Positions 8,038-37,760 of a stretch of DNA of 64,000 bases are shown here, piece after piece. The position numbers and the translations under genes are program-made. The stretch covers positions 9,612,501 to 9,676,500 of the forward strand of contig CM038925.1 of the NCBI GenBank assembly GCA_021904315.1, in the 5' to 3' direction. The first letter of the stretch is position 1; every line of letters starts with the position of its first letter. The notes under the pieces are model-generated. The model made no database searches. It worked only from the letters and a program-made list of their open reading frames with translations, and was not told the origin of the DNA. This DNA is from Sphagnum magellanicum (taxonomy: Eukaryota > Streptophyta > Sphagnopsida > Sphagnales > Sphagnaceae).

Positions 8038-8350
8038 TGTCATGCCCGTACATGGCCTCATACATGATGGCCAATTACGGGCATGCCCATCATGCCTTTT
8101 AAAGTTAATGTACACTTTTAGGATAAGTGTACGTTCATAGGTGATTATACGTTATTAGGTACTTAGGGTTTCAGTTTGTTGGCAGCTGTGTAAAATGCCA
8201 AGACCTTCCTTTTTTTTTTAAATTTTTCTAAAATTCCTTTGTCAAGAGAGTTTCCTCTATAATCAGATAGGATTTCTAGATGTTCATGGCGGCCATTGCA
8301 CGACCACTGTTTACATACATTACATGTTTTTCTTTTTTTGCAATTTAATT
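8038..8350 (+). repeat. 5' LTR portion of the gypsy element
   Basis: It starts TGTCATGCCCGTACATGGCC and is colinear with 15679-15988 at roughly 87% by eye. Shared blocks include GGGCATGCCCATCATGCCTTTTA, TTAGGGTTTCAGTTTGTT and AATCAGATAGGATTT. The match stops at about 8350. The 3' copy continues for another 178 bases that are not found here. Confidence 0.8.
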
Positions 8351-9386
8351 TTAGAAAAACTCTAGTTTTTGTTGCTTCATGTTGAAAACGACAGATTTTT
8401 GTGCCTTTGAGTTCTTGAGTTGTTGTTACTAGTGTTGTTACCGAAGGTAACATAAGTTGCTACTAGTGTTGTTACTAATGTTGTTGGAAGGAGCTTGTGT
8501 TGTTACATTTCTACAACCAACATAGCAAGTTTCAAACCTCCTCCTTTTTTTTCTTTCTCTTTCTCTCACGCAAAAACACGGAGTTGAAGACTTTGAAATT
8601 GCCATCTAAAAAAAAAAACAAAAATTCCGACAACGGCGGTCGCCATCGTTGCCAGGTAGCATTGTTGCAAGTTGTAATGACGCAAGCTTGCAGCACTACC
8701 ACGAGTTCCAATGTCGTTGCAAACTATAATGTTGCTGCGAGTTCCAACGCCCGCAAACTTATAACGTTAGGAGCTTGCAATGCTTGCAGCGTTACAGTGA
8801 GCTTGTAGCACTATGTTGCCATTGGCCATCGCCGTAGAGCTCATGGGCGTTTTGCGGTGCTATGACCTCCAACGTCACATTACCGATTTTTGTCCGTCCA
8901 CGGACTTTCGTTTTTCCAGGGACATCTGTCAAACTTTTGTCCATCGAAGGACGTTCATCAGACTTTTATCCATCCACAGCTTTTGTTCGTCGAACTGTTG
9001 TTTTGTGTCTTGTTGTCTTGTTACCTTACCATCTGCATCTTACATTCTGCGTTTTACCATCCCACCGTTTCATCTAACGTCCATTTGTCACCGTTCATTC
9101 CCATCAAAGCATCGTATTTTTCAAACCATACGTTGTGTTAGAACTTTGTAATTAGTTCTCTGTATTATTACAAAATTTTGGGGCATGGGACAACACCATG
9201 TCTTTAGATGATGAAAGCACTACCGCTTAACCATAGCCCATGTATTAGCTACGAAGTAACACACAATCCTTCGAGTCGATTTTTTTAAGCTCACGATCTT
9301 CATGACGATACCATTAAGTGTTTGTAACACCACCATCATCCAGTATAATTCCTACCAGGGATTTAGGTTCAGGTTAAATTACATTA
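8351..9386 (+). other. gypsy leader region with short internal repeats
   Basis: Non-coding part between the 5' LTR match and gag. It holds loose tandem repeats: GTTGTTACTAGTGTTGTTAC units near 8430-8500, GCAAGTTGTAATGACG-like units near 8660-8780, and TTTTGTCCATCC-type units near 8884-8985. I could not identify a primer binding site with confidence. Confidence 0.5.
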
Positions 9387-10507
9387 ATGATACATCAAAG
9401 TCCATTTGGAGGGGCTCATCAGTGGGGTACACTTCTTGCCACACGTACTTTCACACCATCATCATGTATTTTGCTGCAACTTGTGACCTCAACACCCATA
9501 TACACCATGGAGGTCAGCAGTTTTTCTAGGAGAATTGAAAAGTTCAGTGGAAGGCCATTTACTATTTCTTTGAGGGAGTTCAAGGGAACTTTCTCAACTG
9601 TGGTCTGTGAGTTAACGCTCAAATATGGCACTAATTACACAGAAGCGTTCACATTCAAACAATTGGGCCGTTATGTGCATTATGAGGCATTGAATGTCTA
9701 TGAATAACATTTTTTAAGAATTTTGGGTGTCACCCAAATCCCTAATCCAGTTTATGCCACAACCATTGCCACCGCCTCTCAAACTGCATTGTTAGCTGCC
9801 ATTGCACATCATGGGACTGTGCTCAATAATCCAGATCCGGTACTTACTTCAGTAAACCTTTCTCCTCAACAACTCATTGTTGCTACCACAAACATTCCTC
9901 CCACCATTAATGCACAAGCTTTTGCTAATCCAGTGGGGGAATTATTTCGAGTTTTTGAACTGGAATTTTCAGTTAAGAGTTTTGAAAATATTATACAACT
10001 TACCATTTTCTTTCGACAAAAGGATGAAACCTTCAAGATGCTCTGTAGGAGCCTTTTCAAGCTTAAAGAGGATACTCAGAGCATCATAGACCTGGAAGCT
10101 GCACATCGATATCTTCGTTCATTAGAAGGTACTCCGACACTCCATGTGCAGGTTTTGCAACGAATTTTCACAAAATTTGAAGACTCGTACACTTTGCTGG
10201 ATGTGTACAACATTTATAAAAAGCTAGAACTAGTTCATGCACACTATGAGGCTAGTATTATGAGGCCTCCTCACGTTCAAGGCCTTAGGCTCCACCAATT
10301 GTGCCAACCAGATCATCACATTCTTCTTCAAGTGCTAAAGTAGTGCACTTGGCTACACTCATCCTACTTTCTTGCAACTATTGTGGCAATCCTACCCACA
10401 AAGCAAGTGAGTGCAACATTCCTTCCGAGGATCTCTTTTGTGATTACTGTGGGAAAGAGGGACATCAAGAAGTTATTTGTTTTGCCAAATTTTTGAAAAG
10501 GAGGTAA
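9387..10507 (+). pseudogene. gag-like region with zinc knuckles (gypsy fossil part)
   Basis: Retrotransposon gag part. The beginning resembles plant gypsy gag proteins (FTISLREFKGTFSTVVCELT), and about 9900-10230 has a capsid-like, Leu-rich helical composition. The C-terminal part carries two CCHC-type motifs, CNYCGNPTHKASEC and CDYCGKEGH, at about 10370-10475, typical of nucleocapsid domains that bind RNA. This is a fossil part of the element at 8038-16166. Confidence 0.75.
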
Positions 10508-10690
10508 CTCCGACTACCACGGCAAAATCTCCCAAAATCTTCCGTTTCCCCTCAACCAAAAGTTAAGGCACCTTAGGCTTCCACTCAAACTTTCCCCACC
10601 AAAGGTAATTCCAGTAAGAGTGCTAAGAAGAAGGAACACAATGCTGACAAAAGGGAGGTGCTTTAAGCCCATGCTGCTCAAATTCAAATT

Positions 10691-11140
10691 TTGCAACATG
10701 AACTTGAATCATTGAGGGCCCAACGTACTAATTTAAAAGGCAAGTATTCCCAACCAGCTAGTCATGCCCAACTTGTACAAGGTTTAGGATCATGGAAGGG
10801 ATCTCTTAGGTCATTCTATGGCTTCCCACATGATGCCATGGTTGGGGAATATGTTCTTTCCAAGACTAATGGCTACCACTTGGGATACATACCCCTTGAT
10901 TTACGTGGGAACCATAGTCCTATGGCTCACCATTATATGCTCAAAGAAGCACACACTATTTCTTACATCTAACAAACTAGCCAAGAGTGGATAGACAGAG
11001 ATGAACAGGAAACAGCTTACGCCCAAACTACTGAAAGCTTGAGGGTGGTTGCTACTAACATTCAACACGAACCAAAGGTTTTATAAAGGTTCAAAGCAAC
11101 CCACGAGCCCTTGGTCAAAACTCTATCTAATTTTGAGAAC
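10691..11140 (+). pseudogene. uncharacterised segment between gag and the methyltransferase remnant (gypsy fossil part)
   Basis: This stretch reads as protein-coding in style, for example DAMVGEYVLSKTNGYHLGYI and HHYMLKEAHT, and sits directly before the methyltransferase remnant in the same orientation. It begins with a possible coiled coil (LQHELESLRAQ). I do not recognise the domain. By position it could be an N-terminal accessory domain of the methyltransferase or a linker in the polyprotein. Confidence 0.45.
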
Positions 11141-11204
11141 ATGGAGAGCCATGGCGGACTAATTAAGCCAATACTTCGTCAATTAATCGATTGGACACCA
11201 CCTA

Positions 11205-12005
11205 AGTAGGGGATTACATTACTAGAGTTTTTTTGTGGTATTGGTACAGGTCTCAAAACCCTATTATAGTCAGGGATTGTGGTTCGGAAGTATTTCTACG
11301 TAGACATTACTCCTATTGCAAGGCAAGTGGTGACATCAAGAATGATGGAGCTCATAGCTAGATTTCCACAACAGTTTTCAACCACCGCATGGAAAGCCAG
11401 TTTCACATTTTTGCCTTCTAACATACAACTGATTCAGAAGAAGCATATGGAATTACTTGGCCATGTAGACCTCATCATTTCAGGTTGGGAGTATCAAGGA
11501 TTTTTAACGCCTGGATTTGGAGAAGGCTTGAGTGACACAAGATCTGGACTTTTCACGGACATGGTATGATTGATCACTTGGGCTTAATCCATTTTTCTTA
11601 CATTTGGTTATGTAATTAAGAACACCCCTTCTTAACTTGACCAAAGGGAGAAAGTCCAGAAGCACTACACTCTAATCGAGCATTACCTTGGAGAGCCCCT
11701 CCTACTCGATGAAGCACGATGCGATTCCTATGTGCACCAGTTGTGCAACTGGTGGACCAACTTGGCACCATTCTCAGTTCTGCAACTGGCTCTAAAATAC
11801 ACCATCAGAAACCCCAACTTGCAGGTTTCTCACATATTGGATGATTAGAGCTCTTGCCAACCAGTTACAAGGCAAAAGAAACCTCCTTGGTTTCCTACGA
11901 ACACAATAGGAAAACCAAGAGGTGTTTGGCCCACCTTTGTTTCCTTCCCAAGAGCACATGCGTTTGAAGGAGATGGACCAGGCTTGTGTATTGTCATGTT
12001 TTAGC
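11205..12005 (+). pseudogene. C5 DNA cytosine methyltransferase-like remnant inside the gypsy element
   Basis: C5 methyltransferases transfer a methyl group from S-adenosylmethionine to cytosine. At about 11215-11265 the translation reads LLEFFCGIGTGL, which matches SAM-binding motif I. About 20 residues further, KYFYVDITPIARQV fits motif II. At about 11468-11500, VDLIISGWE and following residues lie where catalytic motif IV belongs, followed by EGLSDTRSGLF. Downstream, to about 12005, a region with NWWTNLAP and a Cys/His-containing stretch fits the target-recognition and later motifs. Overall length (about 265 codons) fits the catalytic domain alone. The order of motifs, not any single one, supports the call. 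It is a broken fossil part of the element. The closest methyltransferase class cannot be settled by eye; a DNMT3/DRM-like or retroelement-specific type is possible. Confidence 0.72.
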
Positions 12006-12044
12006 ACTTAGGATGAACCAAGCCTAGAAGAAAGAGAAAGGGTT

Positions 12045-12590
12045 ATGGGGTTCCAAGCTAGCACTACTAGTCACACTAAAGTGACTAGATTGAAGCGTAA
12101 TGTTCTACTGGGGAGAAGCATGGACCTAAATTCCCTTACATGGTTGTTGGTAACCTGTGTACTCTTTCAAATGTACACAACACCAACATTGATTCAATCA
12201 GTTTGCGGTTCTAGTGATGCAACCACATGGCACCCCGACCAAGTACACTTGCCTATCTTCAACATTTTACATTTCACTCTTAATGTTGGGGGGGAGGAGG
12301 TACCATGTAATTTGACTCAAGTTGTGTCTAATACACTTGGAGGTACATCATCTTTTGAAGAAATAATTACAACCTTCTATGAATCTGCATAGTTGGATAA
12401 TGGAGAACCCAATACACCAAGTTCTTCAAACACACTTTCCAACTCCATTCCATGTGTTTCCAACTACCCTTTCGTTATGGGGAACCAGTTCACCAAGAAG
12501 GAAAAAGACCAAGTCACAGACTTGCTAATTAAGTATGAGAATGTGTTTGCATACTCATTAAAAGACTTAGGTAGGTGTAAGACCATGTAA
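12045..12590 (+). pseudogene. protease-position region before reverse transcriptase (gypsy fossil part)
   Basis: This lies where Ty3/gypsy elements carry the aspartic protease and the link to reverse transcriptase. A stretch like LPIFNILHFTLNVGGEEVPC is compatible with a protease or linker, but I do not see a clear catalytic triad. The end, FTKKEKDQVTDLLIKYENVFA, matches the usual entry into gypsy reverse transcriptase. Confidence 0.45.
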
Positions 12591-13860
12591 TTCTCTATAG
12601 ACCTTACATATGAGATAGCCATCTATCGGAGGAGGCCAAGGTTGAACAAGCATGAGTGGGAACTGGTAGATGAAAGATGCAAAAAACTCCATGAAGTTGG
12701 TCTCATTCAGCCATCAAGTTTTTATTTCGTAACCGCTATAATAATGCAAGTAAAAAAAGATTTAGTTGGATTATGGACTGAAAAAAGGATGTGCGAGGAT
12801 TATAGGCCTTTGAACCTAATTACACCTCAGGACAGGTACCCTATGCCCATCCCTAAAGAATTATTTGATCGCATTGGTGATTCAAACATTTTCACAATTG
12901 TGGATTTGAGGCAAGGTTTCAACTAGATTGTGTTCGTTGTAAAGATTCGCAAGAAAATGACATTCATGGAAGCAACAAGTTGTGGGAATGGCTTGTGATG
13001 CCTTTTGAATTGAAGAATGCACCTGTCTTCTTTCAGCGAGTCATGGACCAAGTTTTCGAAGGGGCAGATTTCCTGAAGTGTTACATAGATGACATCCTAG
13101 TGCATAGCAAGGGACTCCTGCAACACTTGGCTCATCTTGAGAAGTTATTCAAGATATTCCATGAAGTCAATATGAAGATCCATCTTAAAAAGTGTGAGTT
13201 TGTTATCACTTCAATAGTTTACCTTAGACACAGAATTTTGCCAAATGGTATTATGGCTCATTGGGCCAAAGTAATAACCATTTTGAAGATGCCCAATCCT
13301 ATTGATGTTCACATGTTGAGGATTTTCATCGGACTATGTAATTACTACATAATTTATGTCCAAGACTTCAGTACTATTGCTCATCCTCTCTATGCATTGT
13401 TAAAAAAGGATGTTGTTTGGACATGGAGTGATGAGGCTTAGGAAGCTTTCAACACACTCAAGGAAAAGCTTTCAGAGTTCCCCATTTTGAGAAGACCTGA
13501 TTTTGACAAGGTCTTCATTCTACACATTGACTGGAGTGCTCTTGGTATTGGAGCTATTCTTGGCCAACTTGATGAGGAAGGCAAGGAATATGTTATCGCC
13601 TATGCATTCCGAAGCAACAAGGCTAAGAGTAACTACTCTTCATACGAAGGGGAGTGCCTTGTTATTGTATGGATCATCATACATTTCAGGCCCTATCTTT
13701 ATGGCACCAATTTCATTTTGTATATCGACCACTAGCCTATCAAGTGGTTGATGACCAACGATAAGCTTACTAGTAAGTTAACTCGTTGGGCGCTTATGTT
13801 TCAAGAGTATTAGTTCACGGTTATTGGATGACCTGGTATTATACATCAGAATGTGGATAC
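12591..13860 (+). pseudogene. reverse transcriptase and RNase H (gypsy fossil part)
   Basis: The finger and palm regions are visible: CEDYRPLNLITPQDRYPMP, then MPFELKNAPVFFQRVMDQVF, then CYIDDILVHSK, which holds the YIDD catalytic box at about 13080-13110. The connection continues into FILHIDWSALGIGAILGQ and YSSYEGECLVIVW (13510-13680), the RNase H of Ty3/gypsy elements. Fossil part of a broken element. Confidence 0.85.
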
Positions 13861-14158
13861 CATGTCACAGAAACCCCTCACTATTTCTAAAGATTTTTTA
13901 AAAGTAAGGCAAAATTTTGACCAGATTCCAACAGTACATGTATATGATGCATTTAGTTATCTTGCACTATTGCAATGTAATTTGGTTGAACATCCCATTA
14001 TGGATTTATGGGAGGACTTGGACACTCTGAGGTTTCTTTAGCATGGGGAATACCTTCCTTAAGTTACATTAAGTCAACGGGATCGCATGCAACATTCGTC
14101 CAAACACTACTCATGGAGGGACAATCACCTCGTCTGATGCTTACCACAAGGCAACATA

Positions 14159-15100
14159 GTGGTTCCACCACCACATGAATGGCCTGGTCTTATTCAAAAG
14201 GTATACTCGGAGCTTGGACATTTTGAAGTTAAGTGTACTTATAGCCTTCTCGCTCCTCATTACCATTGGAAAAGTAAGTATGCTCAAGTCCAAAATGTCA
14301 TTGCTAGGTGTGAACAATGTGATAGAGTGAGAACTTCTTTCTCTTTTCAACAACTCACATTTTTTCCACTCCCTATTTAGGGCATGTTCTACCATTGGTC
14401 ATGTGATTTAGCTGGAATGTTACCACAAACTTCCAGGGGTAATGTTTACATCATGATTATGATTGAGCATTTTTCAAAGTGGGTTGAGCTTGTTGCGCTA
14501 TCGGACAAGTTATCACATAACACCAGCCATGCTTTTTTATAATAGATTTTAAGTAGGTTTGGGGCTTATGATGAGTGCCTCACTTATCAAGGATCAGAAT
14601 TCAAGGGAAAATTCCAAGACCTATTTGACCATGTTCTCGTTGACCATCGTCAGACTTCAAGAGATCATCCCCAAGCTGATGGCCTTGCAGAGAGGATGGT
14701 TCAAATGTGCAAGAAAGGACTTTGGAAGATTTGCCTCATCAAGAACAAAGAGGATTGGGACCTAGCCCTCCCTTACATTGCCATGGGTTACAGGATGTCC
14801 AAACACGCCTCTTTATCTCATTTCTCTCCTTATTTTTTACTTTTTGGGAGACATCCCATTCCACCCTCTTCCATTACTACTCAAATGGACCAGGTTGTGG
14901 ACTTGGACTCCCCAGCCACTTGGGCTAGGGTCATTGCAGAAAGGGCTGCTCTATTGAAGAAGGCTATGCCCATGGCCATGGAAAACCTGTCCATTGCACA
15001 ACATCGAAACACCTTATGGTATGCACACACACGAGGTGGTAGTTACAAACCTAAAGTGAGACAATTTGATGTTGGTGATTTTGTGTATCTCCAACGGTAA
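14159..15100 (+). pseudogene. integrase (gypsy fossil part)
   Basis: The zinc-binding N-terminus is visible as GHFEVKCTYSLLAPHYHW with the later CEQCDRVRTSF. The catalytic core follows, with EHFSKWVELVAL, then the late core region ALPYIAMGYRMSKHASLSHFSPYFLLFGRHP, ending with the C-terminal VRQFDVGDFVYLQR (GPY/F-like region). This order is typical for gypsy integrase. Fossil part of a broken element. Confidence 0.85.
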
Positions 15101-15139
15101 CCCAATGATACTCTAAACATTTCTTCCAGTCGCACTATC

Positions 15140-15451
15140 TTGATGATTAAGGGAATCAGGCCTCCAAATGTGTTGGAGTTGCAAGGAGCTAACGGACGCA
15201 CAATTCAGGATCATTCCAAAAATTGTGCGCCCTACCACCTACCGAACTTGGATCCTACCATCATCACGTCAACTTGGATTCCTCCACTTGATTATCCATA
15301 TCAGGTATGTCAGAGGACAAATGATGTTGATCAGATCCTGCTTTGCAATAACTATAATGGTGGATACCATCTCTTTTACCTCAAGCCAGAGTTCATTCAA
15401 GTTCTCACTAGCAATTGGTATTGTTCATCATGTTATCCTAAAGCACCTTGA
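15140..15451 (+). pseudogene. PHD-finger-like C-terminal segment after integrase (gypsy fossil part)
   Basis: The segment starts with a retroelement-type tail (NVLELQGANGRT and NCAPYHLPNLDPTI), then at about 15308-15440 shows a PHD-like layout: CQRTNDVDQILLCNN, GGYHLFYLKPEF, then NWYCSSC. PHD fingers bind two zinc ions and read histone H3 tails. Many gypsy elements carry a chromodomain at this place, so a PHD finger could play a similar chromatin-targeting role. The copy is decayed, so zinc binding cannot be judged from it. Confidence 0.6.
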
Positions 15452-15499
15452 TTCCTACTCAGACCATGCCATGCTTTTCCCAGCTCAGGTCCGGGGGGG

Positions 15500-15677
15500 A
15501 TACATGAGAATTTCATTTCAGCCTCCTCTTGCGCATTGTATATATATATGTGCGTGCATCTCTTTTTGGTTGATTAGTTTATACCTTTGACTGGCTTTAG
15601 TATTTTTGTTTAGTAAAATTTATTATGGATTTACACCCTTATGACATTATACGTCAAGACACTACACGTCATGACAG
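15500..15677 (+). repeat. extra copy of the LTR 3' part, upstream of the 3' LTR
   Basis: It starts CATGAGAATTTCATTTCAGCC after a G-rich tract (CCGGGGGGGA) and is about 90% identical by eye to 15990-16166. The 3' end of the element is therefore arranged as a partial LTR end followed by a full-looking LTR. This could be the tail of another LTR left by unequal recombination or template switching. Confidence 0.7.
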
Positions 15678-15678
15678 T

Positions 15679-16166
15679 TGTCATGCCTATACATGGCCTC
15701 ATACATGATGGCCAAATACGGGCATGCCCATCATGCCTTTTAGGGTTAATGTACACTTTTAAGGTAAATGTACGTTCATAGGTGATTGTATGTTATTAGG
15801 TATTTAGGGTTTCAGTTTGTTAGCAATTGTATAAAAGGCCAAACCCTTCCTTTCTCTTTTTAGTTTTTTTAGAATTGCTTTGTCAAAAGAGTTTCCTCGA
15901 TAATCAGATAGGATTTTTAGATGCTCACGACGGCCATTGCATGACCACCATTTATGTAATTACATGTTCTTCTTTCTTTGCAATTCAATACATGAAAATT
16001 TCATCTCAGCCTCCTCTTGTGCATTGTATATATATGTGTGTGCGTGCATCTCTTTTTGGTTGATTAGTTTATACCTTTGATTGGCTTTAGTCTTTTTGTT
16101 TAGTATAATTTACTATGGATTTACACCTTTACGACATCGTATGTCACTACACTACACGTCACAACA
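15679..16166 (+). repeat. 3' LTR of the gypsy element
   Basis: About 488 bases, starting TGTCATGCC and ending CACGTCACAACA. The first 310 bases match the 5' end of the element, and the last 178 bases match 15500-15677. The TG...CA borders fit an LTR. A TATA-like TATATATATG lies at about 16028. Confidence 0.75.
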
Positions 16167-16659: not shown

Positions 16660-17470
16660 TTTGAAGGAAGTGTGAGGATGAAACTCACACTCCCGAAATT
16701 GGGACTTGGGAGTCCTCCAGGACTCCCAAAATTTTAGAGTTCAATTGCAGGGGTCAAAACACCTTGCATTGTAGTGTGTTTTATATCATTGGAAAGCTAT
16801 TGAAGTGTAGATGTTGAAAATGGCCTCGCATGGGCCATTTGGACATCTGCAGCCCAAGTTATGGCAAAAAGAAGGGCCGAGAGTCAAACTTGCAATTTGA
16901 CTCCCGACCATTAAAAGTCGAGAATCGACTCGACCTCGGTGCATGCAGGTGGAGTGCGACACACGGTTGGAAATCTCTCGAGGAGAGCTACAAGTTTGCT
17001 TTAGACCTCATCCCGATCGGAAGTTTGAGCAAAGAGTTATGATTACTCAAAGTCCCGGGAATCCAAACCGGGACAATTTCGGGAGTCCTCCTTGGGAGTC
17101 CCGGGACAAAAAGCCATTCGGATGTGGGTGCTGCGGAGAGGCACAAAGTATACCATATGGGGGAAGGTGGTGGCTTCCCCCAAGTCCGGGCCGTAGTGAG
17201 TCAAGTGAGTCCAGAGTTGCCTGTGGTTTGTCCTAGCACCAAGGGTGCTCCAAAATGTGATCTAACCAACTTGTTGGTTGGTTTGATGCAAGTTCGAGTA
17301 AGTGAATAAGCTTGTCACTTCTTCTTAGTCCCATCCCGAAACTTTAGCACCCCCTTTGCCCCTTTTAGTGTTGAGAGCTGGGAGCGTGCCCCGAATCCCC
17401 CACAATTCCACAACTTGAGTAACTTAGGCCCAACTTGGGGCTAACTAAAGACTTGGGAGCGCGTCAAAGG
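16660..17470 (+). repeat. dispersed repeat of about 0.8 kb, copy 1 (inverted copy at 37030-37760)
   Basis: Shared blocks with the reverse complement of 37030-37760 include the AAAAGCCATTCGGATGTGGG region, GGGGGAAGGTGGTGGCTTCCCCCAAGTCC, CATTGGAAAGCT, the CTCCCAAAATTT/CTCCCAAAGT region and GGGAGCGTGCCC. The sequence is non-coding and rich in GGGAGTC words. It is probably part of an LTR or other transposon that is incomplete here. Confidence 0.65.
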
Positions 17471-29576: not shown

Positions 29577-29874
29577 CAGCAAGGTAAGGTAGACAACTAG
29601 TTGTTACCCGGTAAAACGGTAAAAGTTAGTGGTAAAGGGAGAAGGGAATGCAACAGGTAAGGTAGCGGGTAGAGTAAAGGTAAAGCCGAACGGATTACCC
29701 GATTACCCGGTAATTACATGTAACTAGGTAAATTATTTATTATGGCCCCGGTGCCTTAATGGAGTCCGTCGTCAGTCCGCACGAAGTCCACCATCAGGCT
29801 TGAGTCCGCCATAGAGTCCACCTTGCGAGTCGCCACGATCTTCCGCTGTGGCGCTGAGGGAGCTACAAAGTACA

Positions 29875-31989
29875 ATGTCGAGCAACGGTGATCCTGCTAT
29901 GAGCATGGTCGTTGGTGAGGACGTTACTGTCGTCGTTGCGTCCGATGACAACAACGACAACATGCAAGCGGCCGTGCATTCTGTCGCCAAGTCAAAGCGG
30001 AAGCGCCAAAAACACCAGTTTCCATGGGAGTATGTCAAGGATTGGCAAGACGGCGACTCCGCCAAGCATTGCGAAAAGCGCCAGTGCATGGTGTGTCGCA
30101 ATTGGTATTCCGGATCGACCAATGCGTCAGGCTGGAAAGCCCACATGAAGAGCGCGCACGGCATCACCGGCAACGACATCGCGTTGTCTGCCTCGTCCGG
30201 CAAGCTCATATTCCAGTCGACACTCAGTAGCAAGCCCGTGTTTTCGGAGCCCGTTCTACGTAAGTACGAGAATGCCGTCGTGGACTACGTCGTCGAAGGT
30301 GGCGTCACCCTGCGCGCGGCTGGCGGCGTTCGTTTCAAAAAGTTCATTGTCTCGTTGACAAACGGATATGAGCCGCCATCGACTCGAACAATCCTACGAC
30401 GGATCGCCGAGTTGTACCGCATCTTGGAGCCATTGTTGGCGGCATTTTTGTGCAACCTCGACGTCGCCATCTCCCTAACGCTAGACGGTTGGTCGAATCG
30501 CAACCTGAAGGGCTTCTACATTGTCACCGCGCATTGGGTCGACGTCATTTCTCTAACCAACAAGAACATTCTCTTGACGATCCTTGATGTCAAGTGCAGG
30601 ACTGGCGTCAGCAACCGCGTCGGGGCTGCCCTGTTCAAGTACCTGAAGCACCTAGGCCGGGATGTCGTGACGCGCTTGCTCAACGTTGTCAGCGACAATG
30701 GGACAGACGCGACGGTTGCTGTCGCGCGGCTCTTCCAGCTGGTCAATACCTTCGTCGGCTACGAGCAGATGCGCAAGGTCAACCACGTCTAGTGTGCCGA
30801 CCACTCCGTCCAGCTCGCTGTGCTCAAGGTGTTGACGTTCATTAAGGAGCCCACCGAGCAGCTGCGAGATGCGCTGATCAAAATCCGCCGTAGCAAAGTC
30901 ATGCGGCAGCAGTATCGCATCCAAGTCGCGGCAACCGGGCTTGCCAGCAAGGAGCCGACGCACCAGGACTCGCCCACGCGCTGGAACTCGACTCACGAGA
31001 TGTGCGCCGACGCTTCTAGCAAGCGCATCATTTTGGACTGCATCATGGACCAGTACGCGGTCGACATTGGCCACGGTGCTCTCCCAGACCTAGAATGGCA
31101 TGCCATTGACGGCGTGTCGACATTCCTTCGCACGCCGCGCCAGGTCATGGAGAGCCTCGCGGCCGATCACAAGCCGACGCTTGACCTGGTGTCGATGTCC
31201 GTCTTTCTGCTCTTGAAGCATTGTGACGACAACGAGCAGCAGTTGCAAGAGATCAACGGCAAGCTGACGGCGATCGGAATGAAAGCGAAGCTTGAGAAGT
31301 ACAAGAGCAAGCTGGTGCAAGAACCAGCGATCATTGCGGTGTACTTGAACCCGCAGATCCCCAAGCCGACCGACTCGGCGGAGCTAAAGCTCGTCGTCGA
31401 TCTCGTTTGCAATTCACTGCAACGTCGCTACTCAGCCGAGATGAGCTCTCACCAGAGCATCGAGCAGGAAGCGGCCGACAACTCACTTTTTGCTGCGATG
31501 TTTCAGCTGCAGCACGACGTCGATGGCAATGGCGACGAGGTCGACCAGTATCTCTCGATCGGCGTCGTCCAGTCATCAGGGTTCATCGACGTCTTGTCGT
31601 GGTGGTCGGCCCAAAAGGAATTGTTGCCGGGCCACTACCAGATGGCCATGGACTACCACGGAACACTGGCGACGTCGACGCCATCAGAGCGGGTTAATAG
31701 CGCTGCCGATCGTGAATTCACATGCACCCGACAGTCGCTATCATCGTCGGTGTTCATCATGACAATGTGCCTGCGTTCATGGATGAATGCCGGTATCCTC
31801 AAAGTGCCGGCGAATCAAGCGCAGGTGACGGCTGCCCTCGGACAGGACAACACCAACAATGTGGAGTCAGTCGTCCAGGAACTTGAGGAGGAACAGGAGG
31901 AGTGGGACGAGGAGATCCTTGACGATGGTGTCGTTCAGATACTCCACAACCAATTCGCCGACTTGGTCTCTGAATGCCAAGAACTTTGA
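29875..31989 (+). pseudogene. hAT-family transposase with one in-frame stop
   Basis: Starting at ATG 29875, the frame runs 704 codons with a single interruption, TAG at 30790-30792. It then continues in the same frame (CADHSVQLAVLKVL), which is the usual conserved CxxHxxxL region of hAT transposases. A BED-type zinc finger lies near residues 70-95 (CMVCRNWYSGSTNASGWKAH). DGWSNRNLKGFYIVTAHW and LLNVVSDNGTDATVAVARLF mark the catalytic fold. The C-terminal hAT dimerisation region is TLATSTPSERVNSAADREFT. The coding region is clearly more GC- and CpG-rich than its surroundings. Apart from the one stop it looks whole, which suggests recent activity. An upstream GTG at 29848 is not a likely start. 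Confidence 0.9.
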
Positions 31990-37029: not shown

Positions 37030-37760
37030 AGGAGGAGTCAGGGCACGCTCCCTAGCTCACAACATTTTGAGGGGTAGAAGGGTGTGTTGGAGTTCTGAGA
37101 TGGGACTAGGAAGAGTTGACAAGCTTCACTCACTCACACGAGCTTGCACACAACCCACACAAAGTGGTTAGTGCATAGTTGGAGCACCTTTGGTGTTAGG
37201 ACGAACCACGGGCAACATGGACACATTAGATTCACCACGGCCTGGACTTGGGGGAAGCCACCACCTTCCCCCTTATAGTATATTATGTGGCTGGCCATGG
37301 AGCCCACATCCGAATGGCTTTTCTTTCATGGGACTCCTAAGTGGGAGTTTTGAAATCGCACTAGTTGGGACTCCCGCGACTTTGGAGCCCCATAACTTTA
37401 CGAGCAGACCTTGAATCGAGATGTGATTTAAAACAAAGTTGTAGCTTTCATCAAGAGCTTTCCAATGGTATGTTGCACGCCCTTTGCAGCCAAGTAAATC
37501 GGGTCGATTCCTGACTTTTTCTGGTCGGGAGTCAAACTGGTAGTTTTTCCATAACTTGTGTTTTAGAGCAATGCAAGCCCATTTTAGACATCTACGTTCT
37601 AAGAGCTTTCCAATGTTATAAAGAACGGCACAAGCCATTGAGTTTTGACCCTTGAAATTGCTCTCTGAAGTTTGGGAAGTCCACCGGGACTTGATCTCCC
37701 AAAGTGGGAGTTGCCTTGGGAGTGTGAGGGTTCACTCCCTCATACTCCCTCACACTTTCT
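37030..37760 (-). repeat. dispersed repeat of about 0.8 kb, copy 2 (inverted relative to 16660-17470)
   Basis: The reverse complement matches 16660-17470 over several blocks: the region around AAGCCATTCGGATGTGGG, the GGGGGAAGGTGGTGGCTTCCCCCAAGTCC box, and the GAGCGTGCCC end. The two copies are 20 kb apart in opposite orientation. Next to it (37782-37875) a 43-base tandem pair, CTCTCGG.CTTC.TCTTG.CCCGCA, is present. Confidence 0.65.

Follow-up and report, generated by a model that had tools for sequence, protein, structure and literature searches.

Here, we describe a decayed Ty3/gypsy retrotransposon at about 8038-15992 of a 64,000-nucleotide stretch of Sphagnum magellanicum DNA (GenBank assembly GCA_021904315.1, contig CM038925.1, positions 9,612,501 to 9,676,500 of the forward strand), hereafter called the window. 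Its polyprotein is best read as gag, a segment of unknown family, a DNMT3-like C5 cytosine methyltransferase, reverse transcriptase (RT), RNase H, integrase and a PHD finger, a reading to which we assign a probability of roughly 0.7. The domains follow one another in this order and all lie on the forward (+) strand:

about 8038-15992, + strand: decayed Ty3/gypsy element, delimited by long terminal repeat (LTR) pieces and internal domains
8038-8349, + strand: surviving part of the 5' LTR, 87% identical to 15679-15990
9708-10343, + strand: gag-like open reading frame (ORF), named gag by its position upstream of the zinc knuckles
10373-10414 and 10439-10480, + strand: two CCHC zinc knuckles, seen in the translation (PF00098, E 0.00018, in two stretches)
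10667-11209, + strand: segment of unknown family in the methyltransferase frame, with 3 stops
11210-12001, + strand: C5 cytosine methyltransferase domain, covering motif I through the region of motifs VIII/IX, its frame broken by 5 stops; strongest at 11219-11584
12012-12150, + strand: methyltransferase C-terminal tail resembling motif IX/X and the tail of DNMT3A, shifted to a different frame
12591-13441, + strand: RT (RVT_1 at 12881-13441, E 1e-16)
13442-13735, + strand: RNase H (PF17919, E 2.9e-27)
14138-14380, + strand: integrase zinc-binding domain (PF17921, E 2.5e-11)
14381-15100, + strand: integrase core region (Ty3 Gag-Pol 7q5b, E 3.4e-7, the sole solved match at E ≤ 0.001)
15302-15433, + strand: PHD finger at the integrase C-terminus (PF00628; WSTF PHD)
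15505-15992, + strand: 3' LTR, boundary inferred from a G tract at 15493-15499 and TG...CA ends
15993-16161, + strand: start of a further LTR copy, adjoining the 3' LTR head to tail

An earlier sequence-only reading had proposed a C5 methyltransferase remnant between the gag and RT of a Ty3/gypsy element, in the same orientation as these, and had quoted four motif peptides for it. All four were found on the + strand where they had been placed, namely LLEFFCGIGTGL at 11219-11254, KYFYVDITPIARQV at 11288-11329, VDLIISGWE at 11465-11491 and GEGLSDTRSGLF at 11519-11554, and the order and strand of the domains bear out the position. The remnant itself was recovered with two custom profile hidden Markov models (HMMs). 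The prokaryotic HMM was built from 35 bacterial or archaeal and 3 phage C5 methyltransferases, the former confirmed from 184 pattern matches in an alignment scan of GTDB genomes, and was searched against 426 six-frame chunks of the window. It matched 11219-11584 with 27.3 bits (E 6.1e-8), the runner-up in the window scoring 1.4 bits and the top score over five shuffled windows and one reversed window being 3.6 bits. The viral HMM, built from 28 methyltransferases among 80 IMG/VR loci, gave 32.8 bits (E 1.2e-9), again with a runner-up of 1.4 bits. These E-values are flattering because both seed sets were collected by similarity to the queried domain; despite this, the contrast with other places in the window and with the controls holds.

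From motif I to motif VIII the domain aligns colinearly with phage and bacterial enzymes, and its motifs stand in the C5 methyltransferase order I, IV, VIII, IX/X, where we take the customary motif numbers to apply. The window keeps 21 alignment columns that are invariant in 17 bacterial and archaeal relatives. Both plasmid matches found by tblastn at E ≤ 10 are annotated as cytosine methyltransferases, and the best 60 of 88 phage records comprised 43 named methylase or methyltransferase, 15 without a functional name and 2 tail fibre proteins. In IMG/VR, single-query searches with the RT, integrase and methyltransferase ORFs confirmed no relative, and a pattern for the tryptophan-type motif IV of the window had no match. 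Two IMG/VR contigs that matched the pattern GEGL..RSGLF were rejected, their translations containing no methyltransferase. Taken as anatomy, 11210-12150 is very likely an element-borne C5 methyltransferase domain. The end of the span 11205-12005 given in the sequence-only reading came too early, as the tail follows in a different frame; a sense remnant inside a Ty3/gypsy element was rightly seen, with the methyltransferase tail and the PHD finger overlooked.

By sequence comparison, motif I and the C-terminal tail appear DNMT3-like. Motif I reads GIGTGL in the window and GIATGL in DNMT3A; GIGTGL is also found in the best bacterial match, which among solved relatives scored 97 bits with DNMT3A, 61 with HaeIII, 49 with HhaI, 42 with 4onj ('DNA methyltransferase') and 39 with DRM2. 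The tail at 12012-12150 aligned to the DNMT3A tail with a score of 59, which none of 500 shuffles reached, and among 1278 six-frame chunks of the window it ranked first (runner-up 48); searched alone, it had no methyltransferase match in Pfam or PHROG. An AlphaFold model of modest quality (pLDDT 60.6, pTM 0.53) was compared with the PDB, and all of the best 50 of 82 matches at E ≤ 0.001 carried DNMT3 titles, with TM scores of 0.42-0.44. In a 66-row tree built without plant DNMT3, the domain had a branch length of 10 and no supported placement. A host DNMT3 gene is a possible source, since DNMT3 genes occur in plants other than angiosperms, as stated in passages of PMC6453930. It is also conceivable, and in our view rather unlikely, that the source of the domain was not host DNMT3 but a C5 methyltransferase of bacterial or phage type, passed on by horizontal transfer; against this, the score of the tail with DNMT3A exceeds that with every one of 67 prokaryotic and viral proteins (best 45), plant DNMT3 and DRM lying outside this comparison.

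The surrounding element can be assigned to Ty3/gypsy from the order RT, RNase H, integrase on a single strand and from its flanking LTRs, the 5' copy of which appears truncated. The best solved matches of RT at 12881-13441 were 4ol8 (E 4.5e-19), recorded only as reverse transcriptase/RNase H and which we take to be Ty3, followed by Ty3 Gag-Pol 7q5b (E 1.7e-18); on sequence similarity, RT and integrase are thus nearest to Ty3 among solved structures. Several parts were named on other grounds. The stretch 12591-12926 has no RT match in Pfam and was assigned to RT by position and sequence, and Pfam searches of the gag-like ORF at 9708-10343, the segment at 10667-11209 and integrase at 14546-15097 returned no match. 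The CCHC knuckle pair closes the gag region. No aspartic protease was found: Pfam had no match in 12012-12392, and none of the three + frames between about 10481 and 12600 contains DSG or DTG. The domain may have been lost in this broken copy.

Two readings of the LTRs were considered, one of 312 bp starting at 8038 and 15679, and one of 488 bp at 15505-15992, of which the 5' copy would be truncated. We favour the latter, because the G tract precedes 15505 and the start of a further LTR follows 15992; 15988-16161 is 90% identical to 15500-15671 over about 174 bp. With these preferred boundaries, the 5' LTR would lack a counterpart of the 174 bp with which the 3' LTR begins. Scans for tRNA genes and for Rfam families at the gathering threshold were empty.

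Whether the methyltransferase belonged to a spreading family bears on how the element is understood. It might have been acquired by this one copy, through transduction or template switching in reverse transcription, and never have been part of such a family; a single copy is visible, and tblastn of the element pieces found no second one within the window. We consider this improbable, as the domain lies in sense between gag and RT, shares the strand and frame of the preceding 10667-11209 segment, is near full length and has no repeats of at least 14 bp around it, all of which is as expected for a part of the polyprotein.

The present copy cannot make the enzyme and is a remnant only. The methyltransferase frame carries 5 stops in 264 codons (8 to 18 in the other five frames), decay is seen as in-frame stops and frame changes with the tail in a different frame, and the catalytic Pro-Cys of motif IV is absent. 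The LTR pair has diverged to a Kimura two-parameter distance of 0.14, with 33 transitions against 6 transversions over 311 aligned bases, so that the changes are mostly transitions. CHG sites are depleted in the element (9500-15500) to 0.57 of expected, compared with 0.91 in the window, and the observed/expected CpG ratio is 0.31 in the element, 0.39 in the window and 0.25 in the F-box gene. The scarcity of CHG and the transition-rich LTR changes fit a long period of methylation and subsequent deamination, whatever the source of the methylation. The missing Pro-Cys could alternatively point to a non-catalytic role, in which the domain served as a DNA-binding part or disturbed host methylation as a decoy for host DNMT3 or factors of RNA-directed DNA methylation. 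This seems quite improbable, given the invariant columns that are kept; moreover, in an old copy with breaks along its whole length, the loss of Pro-Cys may be plain decay.

The curated models, which are independent of the domain, gave a weaker signal for it than the custom HMMs. A PF00145 search, proposed as a check in the sequence-only reading, reached only 11.7 bits (E 0.17) in one 141-residue piece, below the 22-bit cut-off, and the other three of four pieces had no PF00145 match. Neither the 264-residue piece nor its longest uninterrupted part had a Pfam match at E ≤ 1, the same was true at E ≤ 10 of a 324-residue joined piece, and the single match that phmmer gave in the PDB was a weak one to an NADH dehydrogenase (E 0.26), with no methyltransferase found. 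We consider the failed PF00145 check to be outweighed by the custom HMMs. The NCBIfam and PHROG matches were exclusively to cytosine or DNA methyltransferase families, namely TIGR00675 dcm (E 0.011), the sole NCBIfam match at E ≤ 10, and the only two PHROG matches of the long piece, phrog_363 (E 0.0042) and phrog_116 (E 0.026). Chance likeness of noncoding sequence to methyltransferase motifs, to which the lack of a call by Pfam itself would lend some credit, is extremely improbable and was rejected at the level of both HMM window controls, given E-values of 6e-8 and 1e-9 with the rest of the window far lower and dcm as the only NCBIfam family recovered.

The PHD finger scored 23 bits (E 8.4e-5) with PF00628 over the whole ORF, where the cut-off is 24, and 25.1 bits (E 1.8e-5) as a 58-residue piece. 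Forty-six solved sequences matched the region at E ≤ 0.01, the WSTF PHD being the best (E 1.3e-8), and in a scan of 1278 chunks across the window the region scored 108 and the next place 39. In the alignment with WSTF, at least two of the WSTF Cys positions are Tyr in the element. On this similarity, the element appears to hold a chromatin-reader fold in addition to its writer of methylation, a combination that we did not find described for land-plant elements. Plant chromoviruses are Ty3/gypsy elements with a chromodomain on the integrase; they likewise have a chromatin-reader fold at the integrase C-terminus, which is a chromodomain there and a PHD finger here, with the methyltransferase as an addition. 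Among the matches listed from the open-licence literature, in the passages concerned, no PHD-bearing plant Ty3 element appeared and the PHD passages dealt with host genes.

As a possible course of events, an ancestor of the element would have taken up a DNMT3-type domain by way of a processed RNA. The PHD finger linked to the integrase would have bound the histone H3 tail and steered insertion, and the methyltransferase, travelling in that particle as well, would have methylated the new DNA copy or the insertion site de novo. Such early marking of the copy might have limited damage to the host. Self- or target-methylation of this kind is a tentative proposal, made by analogy. We give a little less than an even chance to the existence of a land-plant Ty3/gypsy family in which gag and RT flank a DNMT3-like writer and the integrase carries a PHD reader, the reader choosing the chromatin and the writer methylating the copy or the target.

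Retrotransposon-encoded DNA methyltransferases are known from the dinoflagellate Symbiodinium and the charophyte Klebsormidium, with de novo CG methylation demonstrated, according to the parts of PMC5890265 consulted here and in the following comparisons. The closest in kind is KnitGypsy-Dnmt3 of Klebsormidium nitens, in the description of which a non-rearranged methyltransferase domain of DNMT3-like type likewise accompanies a Gypsy-type Pol (PMC5890265). It differs in having a DIRS-like repeat arrangement where the present element has direct LTR pieces, in its conserved key residues and purifying selection as opposed to one broken copy, and in its host, a charophyte rather than a land plant. 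The term 'PHD' is absent from the main text of PMC5890265, whereas the present element has the finger. SymbioDIRS-Dnmt3 and SymbioLINE-Dnmt of Symbiodinium resemble it as retrotransposons that encode a C5 methyltransferase and differ in belonging to the DIRS and LINE classes and in host lineage (PMC5890265). The plant Ty3/gypsy clades of REXdb share the LTR structure with gag, RT, RNase H and integrase, and the words 'methyltransferase' and 'PHD' do not occur in the main text of that survey (PMC6317226).

Methylase-encoding transposons were stated in 2019 to be absent from land plants (a passage of PMC6338049), and a brown-algal DNA transposon with an N4/N6 methyltransferase is a different case (likewise from a passage, PMC12477816). 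The sequence-only reading had called the arrangement unusual for land plants. In agreement with this, no land-plant retrotransposon with a C5 methyltransferase was found among the matches listed from the open-licence literature, and the passages from PMC9033089, PMC9861306, PMC10508981 and PMC10952607 added nothing further on such elements. Cytosine methyltransferase is the very type of enzyme behind the silencing of retrotransposons. With a land-plant case, the known pairing of the two would extend to both sides of the origin of land plants, one could ask whether DNMT3 genes and such elements have exchanged domains, and there would be a concrete element for asking if self-methylation helps a parasite to persist. 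Through the additional PHD finger, targeting by reader plus writer would become open to test. If a family with both writer and reader exists, the statement in the literature that methylase-encoding transposons are missing from land plants would no longer hold.

The DNA of the window looks like that of a plant nucleus. Around the element, F-box/kelch, pentatricopeptide repeat (PPR) and hAT transposase domains were recognised, together with an acyl-CoA dehydrogenase piece under the Pfam cut-off. The PPR, F-box/kelch and other genes suggest a land-plant host. Outside the element, 16720-17401 and 37031-37682 are inverted copies of about 680 bp with 71% identity, a repeat of no assigned family. At 29815-31986 there are two long open stretches with one stop between them, the second containing a hAT dimerisation domain (E 2.9e-12); the observed/expected CpG ratio of this region, 1.20 as against 0.39 for the window, and its GC content of about 50% suggest a young insertion.
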